Assembly: GCA_013177855.1 (NCBI GenBank)
Contig: JABLYA010000001.1
Location: 1,039,231 to 1,103,230, forward strand
Direction of reading: 5' to 3'
From: Ignavibacteria bacterium
GTDB taxonomy: Bacteria; Bacteroidota; Ignavibacteria; Ch128b
Length of the DNA: 64,000 nt
The position numbers and the translations under genes were made by a program. The notes under the pieces were generated by a model. It was not told the DNA's origin, ran no database searches, and saw nothing but the letters and a program-made list of their open reading frames with translations. Shown piece by piece: positions 9,332-35,240 of this stretch. How positions within the stretch are numbered: the stretch's first letter is position 1; every line of letters starts with the position of its first letter.

Positions 9332-10417
9332 TTATCTAACTGCTGGCTCGAGCAATGCAAATTTTTCTTTTTCTACATCAATCATTGCTCTTACGCCAAT
9401 GGGTAAAGTAAATTTATTTTTTATGTGACCGAATGATAATCCATAAATCACTGGAATTCTGAGGAAACTCAATCTATCAACTAATACTTCTCGCAAAGTA
9501 AATGAATCTCTAAATGATGGATTTTCTTTTTTCACTTCACAGTTAGAGAATACTCCCATTACAACTGCTTTGCATTTCCCAATTTTCTTTGAATTTATTA
9601 GATGAGTTAACATCCTATCAATTCGATACGGTTCTTCACCAACTTCTTCAATGAAAATAATTTTGTTTTCAGGATTAAAATCGAATTCTGTCCCGAGCAG
9701 ACTTATAAGAAGTGAAAGATTACCGCCGACTAAATTTCCTTCTGCTTTGCCAGATGAAATTTTAATTATCTCGTTTCCAATTGACGATATTTGCTTTTCG
9801 TTTTCATCGAGTGTTTCAGGTTCACTAATCAAATCGACATAATCGCTTGCTTCGAAAAGAATTTGCTTCATATAATTTTTTGTAAAATCATTGAATGTCG
9901 AGATTCCAACGGGTCCATGAAAAGTTATCAAGCCAGTCTTCACATAAATTGCAATTAATAAAGCAGTAATATCCGAATAGCCAATAATTACTTTAGGATT
10001 TTTTCGAATTAAATCATAGTTTATCAAATGAAGAATTCTTGGTGTTCCGTATCCACCTCGTGCACAAAAGATTCCGGCTATATCTTTTCGTGCAAACATT
10101 TCGTGTAAATCTTCAACTCTTTCCTGATCAGCTCCTGCAAGATATCCTGTCTTTTTGAACAAATTTTTTGATGGAACTGCTATTAGACCAATATTTTCTA
10201 AATTTACTTTGATCTTTTCGAAATCTTCTTCTGTTATAAAACTTGCAGGAGCGATTATTCCAACTCGCTCACCTTCTTTTAATCTTTTCGGTTTGATAGA
10301 TCTTTTTTCTTTTGACTTCAATTTGCTTTGAGAAAATAAAAAAGGTTGAGTGTATGAACTCAACCCTGAAGCAAAAAACGTAAATGCTGATGCAGCTAAA
10401 AATTTCCTTCTATTCAT
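9332..10417 (-). CDS. Secreted LD-carboxypeptidase-like peptidase (S66 family)
   Basis: This 361-residue protein has a twin-arginine-like leader (NRRKFLAASAFTFFASG), so Tat export is likely. The S66 fold recurs in peptidoglycan LD-carboxypeptidases (LdcA) and in MccF. Catalytic candidates are Ser 148 in GYSDIT, a Glu in FIEEVGEEPYRIDRM (about residue 257) and a His in SFGHIKN near the C-terminus. The substrate-loop motif FCARGGYGTPRIL is present. The likely role is removing the terminal D-alanine from murein tetrapeptides during recycling. The start overlaps the stop of the thioredoxin-like gene by 4 bp, so the two are translationally coupled as the last gene of a three-gene operon. Confidence 0.85.
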   Translation of the reverse strand: MNRRKFLAASAFTFFASGLSSYTQPFLFSQSKLKSKEKRSIKPKRLKEGERVGIIAPASFITEEDFEKIKVNLENIGLIAVPSKNLFKKTGYLAGADQERVEDLHEMFARKDIAGIFCARGGYGTPRILHLINYDLIRKNPKVIIGYSDITALLIAIYVKTGLITFHGPVGISTFNDFTKNYMKQILFEASDYVDLISEPETLDENEKQISSIGNEIIKISSGKAEGNLVGGNLSLLISLLGTEFDFNPENKIIFIEEVGEEPYRIDRMLTHLINSKKIGKCKAVVMGVFSNCEVKKENPSFRDSFTLREVLVDRLSFLRIPVIYGLSFGHIKNKFTLPIGVRAMIDVEKEKFALLEPAVR

Positions 10418-15110: not shown

Positions 15111-15296
15111 TTGTCACCTCTTTAATTCTGATGCAAACATAACTTTTGCAACTTTTAGAGTAAGTCGGCACAAACCGAATTAATTGTAAGTTTTTCCTTG
15201 CAATGAAATAATAGGATAGATTAACAAAAGAGTGGTGAAAAATCTAAACCGAGTAGAGCTTAAACCTAATCACATTTTTTTAGTTTATGAATAAAA

Positions 15297-34081: not shown

Positions 34082-34357
34082 ATGACCATAAAACCATTAG
34101 ATGATCGTGTACTTGTTGAGATAATCGAAGAAGAAGAAACTAAAACCGCCTCAGGATTATATATTCCTGACACTGCCAAAGAAAAACCAAGAATGGGAAA
34201 AGTATTAGCTGTTGGAACCGATGAAGATTTAAGAGAAAAAGTCAAAGTTGGTGATATGATTTACTTTGCGAAATATGGTGGTGAAGAGATTGAATTGGAT
34301 GGAAAGACTCTTAAAATTATTCCTCGCTCTGATATTCTTGCAATAGTCGAAAAATAA
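34082..34357 (+). CDS. groES: Co-chaperonin GroES
   Basis: This 91-residue protein forms the seven-membered lid of the GroEL chamber. The typical [12 protein letters not shown] start, the mobile loop with [15 protein letters not shown] (residues 19-33) and [16 protein letters not shown] are clear. A ribosome site (AAAGGAG) precedes ATG. groEL does not follow: the next 1.1 kb holds no gene and the next gene is on the other strand. No CIRCE-type operator is seen upstream of the glutaredoxin gene. Confidence 0.96.
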
Positions 34358-34368
34358 CTTGAAAAACT

Positions 34369-34481
34369 GAAATCACTACCCATTCTTTTACCTTCAAATT
34401 AAGAAGCAATGTTTGAAATTTTTGAAACATTAATTAAATTTGTGGTGAAAAGTGTGTTCTAATTTTGAAGGTAGTGACTTC
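34369..34481. repeat. Long inverted repeat with alternative pairings downstream of groES
   Basis: GAAATCACTACC at 34369-34380 pairs with GGTAGTGACTTC at 34470-34481 (11 of 12). A second left segment, TACCTTCAAATTA from 34389, can pair with TAATTTTGAAGGTA ending at 34473. The two pairings share GGTA. An inner AATGTTT/AAACATT hairpin (about 34409-34431) sits inside. It may be the 3' end structure of the glutaredoxin-groES message or part of a structured RNA. Confidence 0.5.
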
Positions 34482-34491
34482 AGTAATCGAA

Positions 34492-34520
34492 TTGAAAAAT
34501 TGAAAATTAGTTCTTTTAGA
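34492..34520 (+). promoter_or_regulatory. Candidate promoter for the C-rich RNA
   Basis: TTGAAA at 34492-34497, a 17-bp spacer and TTTAGA at 34515-34520 form a sigma-70-like pair. The predicted start about 7 nt downstream falls at the left edge of the RNA's stem. The -10 matches the consensus at only 3 of 6 positions and Ignavibacteria promoters are poorly known, so this is tentative. Confidence 0.35.
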
Positions 34521-34526
34521 GTTTGA

Positions 34527-34627
34527 AATTTGGAGATCGCAGAGTAGCCCTAACCGGTCACCTCACTTAAATCCCACCTCAATAACGATGCCCCTAACCC
34601 AATGCGATCTCCAAATTCTTTTTTTTT
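34527..34627 (+). ncRNA. Candidate C-rich small RNA with anti-Shine-Dalgarno-like motifs
   Basis: A perfect 15-bp stem (AATTTGGAGATCGCA at 34527-34541 with TGCGATCTCCAAATT at 34603-34617) encloses a 61-nt loop and is followed by nine T at 34619-34627. It would be about 100 nt. The loop is strikingly C-rich for this AT-rich genome. It holds CCCTAACC at 34548-34555 and 34592-34599, and CACCTC at 34559-34564 and 34575-34580. CACCTC matches the anti-Shine-Dalgarno end of 16S rRNA, so the RNA could pair with GAGGTG ribosome sites. The same element could be no more than an elaborate terminator. No known RNA family was recognised. Confidence 0.5.
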
Positions 34628-34819: not shown

Positions 34820-35240
34820 TTGTCTCAAAAAGAGTAATAGTTAAGTAAAAAAGGGCCAAGCGTGTATCGAGAAAACTAATACTTGATTGTAAAAGAACCA
34901 ATAAGAATTAAAAAAAAGCCTTTTTTGAATGAAAAAGAAACATCGATGGGTCTAAAAGAGCCAATTTTGAGTGAAAAAAAACCATCGATGGGTCTAAAAG
35001 AGGCAATTTTGGGTGAAAAAGAACCATTTTTGTATGAAAGAGAACCTTTATTGAGTTAAAGAGAGTCATCGGTATATCTGTAAGAGGCAATTTTAGTTGT
35101 AAAAATCTTAACAGGGAGAAAAGAAAATTTATTGATAAATGAAAAGGAACAATCTTTCAATGAAAGAGACCTTAAGGCTGAAACATAAAATGCAATTCTT
35201 AAATGAGAAGAATTAACAATTGAATAAAAGTCGCTTTGCT
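34820..35240 (+). repeat. Degenerate 21-bp tandem repeat array (about 20 units)
   Basis: Units recur every 21 bp without any insertion or deletion from 34820 to at least 35219. Read in one plus-strand frame they give seven-residue repeats of the form LxxKEPx, for example MGLKEPI, LSEKKPS, MGLKEAI, LGEKEPF and LYEREPL. The best-kept DNA units are TCATCGATGGG-like, at 34925-35050. In-frame stop codons interrupt the frame at both ends (for example 35057-35059 and from 35183 on), so no complete gene is present. The minus-strand frames at 34908-35090 and 35056-35283 arise from the repeat. It could be a decayed repeat protein or a non-coding minisatellite. Confidence 0.6.

Follow-up and report, generated by a model that had tools for sequence, protein, structure and literature searches.

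We identify a C-rich hairpin element that is conserved in two genera of a single Ignavibacteria family, occupies a different locus in each, and descends almost certainly from a segment of pilB, the gene for the type IV pilus/type II secretion ATPase; in one of the two genera the corresponding stretch of pilB is itself nearly frozen at the nucleotide level. Our favored explanation, to which, taken as a whole, we give about an even chance, is that the element is a lineage-restricted, trans-acting small RNA gene that came from pilB and works through its C-rich loop. It would specify an independent non-coding RNA of ~100 nt, read from the plus strand and restricted to this one family. A piece of pilB folding into the same hairpin would have been duplicated to give the free-standing element, whose stem would close and terminate the RNA and hold the loop, most likely for pairing in trans with G-rich mRNA stretches, be they Shine-Dalgarno (SD) regions or leaders.

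The element was noticed in a window of 64,000 nucleotides, the whole stretch of DNA analyzed here, by a sequence-only reading that described a perfect 15-bp stem with a 61-nt loop followed by nine T residues. All of this is borne out: the 5' arm AATTTGGAGATCGCA (34527-34541; plus strand, as are the other parts of the element, the conserved stretch upstream of it and groES), which is kept in 5 of 5 known elements, pairs perfectly with the 3' arm TGCGATCTCCAAATT (34603-34617) around a C-rich loop (34542-34602), and the T run follows at 34619-34627. When loops of 3-90 nt were allowed, this stem was the longest of three perfect stems of at least 13 bp in the window, and none of that size arose in five first-order Markov shuffles of it. 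The loop order reported earlier is likewise exact, namely CCCTAACC (34548-34555), CACCTC (34559-34564), CACCTC (34575-34580) and CCCTAACC again (34592-34599), and so is the contrast of a C-rich loop with an AT-rich genome: a 60-nt stretch of the loop is 40% C, a value matched or exceeded by 25 of 63940 plus-strand 60-nt windows, in a window of 33% GC. Within the loop lies a 22-nt core, TAGCCCTAACCGGTCACCTCAC (34545-34566), which is invariant in all five elements and holds a GCC/GGU mini-helix and an anti-SD-like TCACCTC. The element folds with z = -4.06 (1 of 200 dinucleotide shuffles as good), and the predicted structures leave the first CACCTC partly paired (mean unpaired 0.39-0.55) and the second mostly free (0.84-0.87).

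BLAST searches of 61 related genomes located the element in five of them (E < 1e-16), and a covariance model built from these five elements was then searched across the family, class and phylum. It recovered a single full element in each of five of the six family genomes, which also make up the whole order among the genomes examined and fall into three genera: g1 (G000, the source of the window, with G001 and G002), g2 (G003 and G005) and g3 (G004), the last of which yielded no full element with this model. The 391 class genomes gave the same five family genomes and no further full elements, and the 395 phylum genomes gave G000 alone; the exact core is found in three public contig records, all from genomes of the same group. 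All five elements share the core and most of the stem without change, and the second CACCTC reads CACCTT in g2. One stem pair (columns 17-83) changes from A-U to G-C between the genera and another (columns 13-87) from U-A to U-G. With one pair altered on both sides in five sequences, covariation is thin, and it leaves the stem unproven because the paired-cells and covariation measures are reached by 55 of 500 shuffles and the count of doubly changed pairs by 346 of 500. A covariance search of relatives had been named in advance as a check of the element, and absence of the loop motifs outside the source genome as a refutation; the loop is conserved beyond that genome. We are highly confident that the element is real and conserved.

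A family-wide search with GGTCACCTCAC turned up a further match in each g2 genome, located within pilB (T2SSE domain). Over ~125 nt this second site runs parallel to the element in sense orientation. In G005, the element and pilB nt 1250-1375 agree at 94 of 122 aligned positions, and the window's own element aligns in sense, over 34532-34623, to nt 1284-1374 of the same gene. The match between element and pilB has an E-value of 1e-10 with the database size set to 3 Mb. In a test that left out ~30 loci holding or overlapping elements and that drew on a pilB-rich set of loci, the element core scored 38 against the pilB segment, 1000 shuffles giving a mean of 8.4, a standard deviation of 1.6 and a maximum of 17; the G000 element scored 29 in the same shuffle-controlled test. 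Consistent with this, the best matches of the covariance model after the elements themselves, in the family search, were pilB of G003 and G005 (E 1e-9), and outside the family two of the four weak class matches and both phylum matches fall in pilB. Weak hits of the model include L051, L054, L058, L065 and L067, L058 being the leader region of a FecR gene. The pilB genes of g1 and g3 are unremarkable against the element (scores 14-21). Taken together, these observations leave us with very little doubt about the pilB origin of the element. As read from the sequences, the element has stops in frame relative to pilB and so is no coding copy of that gene.

Comparison of the two g2 pilB genes, both from fragmented assemblies (160 and 540 contigs), uncovered a second peculiarity. 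They differ at 346 of 1791 nucleotides, but nt 1252-1388, a stretch of 137 nt, contain a single difference, and outside it no run with one difference or none exceeds 33 nt. Synonymous differences affect 250 of 538 codons (46%) gene-wide versus 1 of 28, or 1 of 35, among codons of the element-like stretch. Freezing of this kind was absent from the pilB genes of g1 and g3 in a comparison of seven pilB genes that left out L068, 13-15 of 28 codons differing between g1 pairs. An embedded working copy of the RNA element would explain why the g2 stretch seems unable to change even synonymously, and our favored explanation supposes that g2 pilB still holds such a copy within its coding sequence; as judged from these comparisons it would be g2-specific at most, because the g1 and g3 genes are not frozen. 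The g2 stretch is predicted to be able to adopt a comparable hairpin that has the GCC/GGU mini-helix and five T residues behind the stem, and as a 160-nt segment it is no more stable than its shuffles (z -0.41; 63 of 200). The stem arms of pilB pair at 6.93 of 9 positions within a gene versus 6.66 of 9 when dealt among genes (0 of 2000 shuffles), a result to which we give no weight as it is uncontrolled for kinship. We also considered an RNA constraint on pilB throughout the class and rejected it: among 91 pilB genes (31 from the search loci and 60 hand-picked among matches in 202 of 391 genomes), the closest 70 of 1146 species pairs, with pairs counted at a synonymous difference below 55% and over more than 380 comparable codons, were without freezing like that of G003 and G005.

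The descent from pilB could be correct and the frozen stretch could nonetheless be the trace of recent recombination between the two g2 species rather than of selection. In favor of this, the stretch is a single contiguous tract and is known from two genomes. We nevertheless regard it as unlikely, since the ends of the frozen tract coincide with those of the element-like stretch (nt 1250-1375) to within 2 nt on the left and 13 nt on the right, and since pilB alone among nine orthologous genes of G003 and G005 has 35-codon windows with at most one difference (9 of 3070 such windows), the minima of the other genes ranging from 5 to 14.

A more specific history can be proposed tentatively, and we rate it as possible but short of an even chance: the RNA would have been born inside the coding sequence for the catalytic core of PilB and copied out later, so that g2 pilB would be dual-coding, its 137 nt specifying both an ATPase motif and a functional RNA hairpin, and in g1 the free-standing copy would have taken over and released pilB. 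The origins of bacterial small RNA genes are poorly documented, and if this history is true it would provide a traceable case, with the parent stretch in a protein gene, the free RNA copy, and a different locus per genus all in view; one genus may even hold both copies, one of them within a conserved motor ATPase. The analysis also yields a covariance model, and synonymous freezing in g2 pilB offers a prediction testable with more genomes.

With regard to possible partners of the loop, the piece CTCAATAACGATGCCCC (34578-34594) is complementary, with at most two mismatches, to GGGTCANCGTTATTGAGG, a conserved sequence that each of the three g1 genomes carries in a FecR gene leader, immediately ahead of a terminator-like hairpin. 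The predicted duplexes have energies of -35 to -39 kcal/mol, and 5 of 4242 windows of a 64-kb background pair as well as or better than the FecR leader, figures to be read in light of the fact that the pairing pattern was picked after sight of the BLAST list. In g2, a search for a counterpart of this complement matched only the elements themselves without mismatch, and neither g2 nor g3 yielded the FecR gene. G000 has one more exact match, at the start of an ORF that we call STAS-like from reading it rather than from a search. From such complementarity we treat the FecR leader as a candidate pairing partner and a lead only, not as a target call. The conserved leader sites are found in L081 (1360-1475), L071 (around 1501) and L070 (around 281), and the leader with GGGTCANCGTTATTGAGG and its hairpin could itself constitute a small RNA or an attenuator.

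These data bear on a different way in which the element could act, that is as a sense-strand mimic of the pilB hairpin, a decoy that titrates a protein or small RNA binding the pilB mRNA. The sense orientation, the blocks GGAGATCGC, AGCC, ACCGGTCACCTCAC, AATGATGCCCCAA and GCGGTCTCC shared by element and pilB in g2, and the near-frozen state of both copies in that genus are what such mimicry would produce, and in g1 the FecR leader with its conserved complement is a conceivable partner RNA. Yet the g1 pilB genes are devoid of the blocks (alignment scores of 17-19 against the G000 element) although the element is conserved there, and g2 has neither a complement nor, like g3, a FecR gene that we could find. 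We thus consider mimicry improbable, on a par with recombination as an account of the frozen tract, and continue to favor a small RNA whose loop would pair with G-rich mRNA stretches.

The genomic setting of the element speaks to whether it is more than a transcription terminator. In g1 it is found 3' of groES (34082-34357 in the window), which neighbors it in that genus only; in g2 it adjoins a convergent gene for a small membrane protein, lying 3' of that gene, and in G003 it sits between this gene and glnA. Both G001 and G002 have another hairpin, with its own T run, between groES and the element. It follows that the element cannot simply be equated with the groES terminator, an outcome that the sequence-only reading had itself named as refuting its proposal, and given that the g2 copies lie elsewhere we also reject the assignment of the element to groES terminators as a class. 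The broader possibility of a mere terminator or DNA hairpin with no function in trans gains something from the stem and T run and from the position 3' of groES or of the convergent gene, but termination has no need of a 22-nt loop core invariant across genera or of a 61-nt loop, and, with groES of G001 and G002 already having terminators of their own, we regard it as rather improbable. In G000 the position between groES and the element is taken by a long hairpin that lacks a T run (34367-34480, directly 3' of groES; z -4.54 and 0 of 200 shuffles as good in a 146-nt fold). Separately, 54 nt of the G003 sequence that separates the element from glnA (L032, about 9879-9932) recur elsewhere in G005 (C226 and C223) and are probably an intergenic repeat.

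Conservation among the g1 genomes begins ~25 nt upstream of the element, with a stretch common to all three (34502-34526), and similarity of the window to G001 and G002 ends at the T run, beyond which, as upstream of the common stretch, the flanks diverge. This upstream conservation and the stop at the T run suggest transcription from the plus strand. The common stretch is a candidate promoter region, although a sigma-70 consensus scan recognized no promoter for the element; the promoter earlier placed at the stem edge finds no support, as the scan returned 13 sites versus 12.5 expected, with none ending at the stem. Were the minus strand transcribed instead, the RNA could pair with pilB mRNA as an antisense regulator, given that in g2 blocks of 9-14 nt in this strand of the element complement pilB, and that the strand folds well too. 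The g1 T run and upstream conservation point to the other strand, however, and the match to pilB has been lost in g1, making antisense action a slightly poorer prospect still than a mere terminator. Poorest of all is a small protein-coding gene with the open frame GGAGATCGC..GTAGCCCTAACCGGTCACCTCAC, which we consider very improbable: a 3-nt indel between the genera appears by eye to preserve the frame, but every wobble position of GTA GCC CTA ACC GGT CAC CTC is invariant, and g1 and g2 differ, as read from the sequences, in where the stop falls.

The sequence-only reading also proposed that the CACCTC copies sequester the ribosome sites of mRNAs. Their match to the anti-SD sequence is confirmed, the 16S tail TGGATCACCTCCTTTC, which TCACCTC matches, being present in the source genome. 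As to its statement that SD sites are common in the window, among the first-ATG starts of 46 ORFs of at least 150 aa, an SD-like word precedes 21, whereas a control position gave 4 of 46, but GAGGT, sought at -18 to -4, precedes none of the 46. The cited example of GAGGTG near 15115 does not stand, since it lies on the minus strand (the plus strand reads TCACCTC) and no ORF of at least 80 aa begins there. Because the invariant core extends beyond CACCTC to include the GCC/GGU helix, and because the cited SD example is without a long ORF, anti-SD action, as deduced from the motifs, is possible but unproven. What survives of the earlier proposal is a conserved, discrete, non-coding-RNA-like element independent of groES; the sequestration it invoked is unproven, and it overlooked both the descent from pilB and the frozen stretch in g2.

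No Rfam 15 model matched the window at the gathering thresholds, the best sub-threshold match being a microRNA model (E 0.31), and we found no published account of this RNA or of any Ignavibacteria small RNA in the open-licence literature. A MITE or dispersed repeat can be rejected, as five of the six genomes hold one full element each and not several copies; a phage- or plasmid-borne RNA is likewise rejected, with no match to the G005 element as query, and two patterns searched for had no matches in viral contigs. With intrinsic terminators the element shares a stem followed by a T run, but it differs from them in its very large conserved loop, in the different locus per genus, and in adjoining groES genes that in G001 and G002 have their own terminators. 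Functionally, small RNAs with C-rich loops, of which RsaE of Staphylococcus is another example, would be the closest kind. The sX13 RNA of Xanthomonas has C-rich loops through which it acts on G-rich motifs in mRNAs (PMC3771888). By analogy, the element would be a stable stem exposing a C-rich loop suited to G-rich motifs near translation starts, but in place of the three short loops of sX13 it has one large 61-nt loop and descends from a coding gene, with no sequence relation seen. Gene duplication is a stated route of small RNA origin (PMC8557413, citing Dutcher and Raghavan 2018). The element resembles such RNAs in its proposed origin by duplication, and differs in that it derives from a conserved part of a protein gene, which in a sister genus shows nucleotide-level freezing.

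Finally, each of the three g1 genomes has 21- to 24-bp units arrayed in tandem downstream of the element (window 34911-35064; L002 1868-2095; L003 1235-1423), and from one g1 species to another these units appear unrelated.
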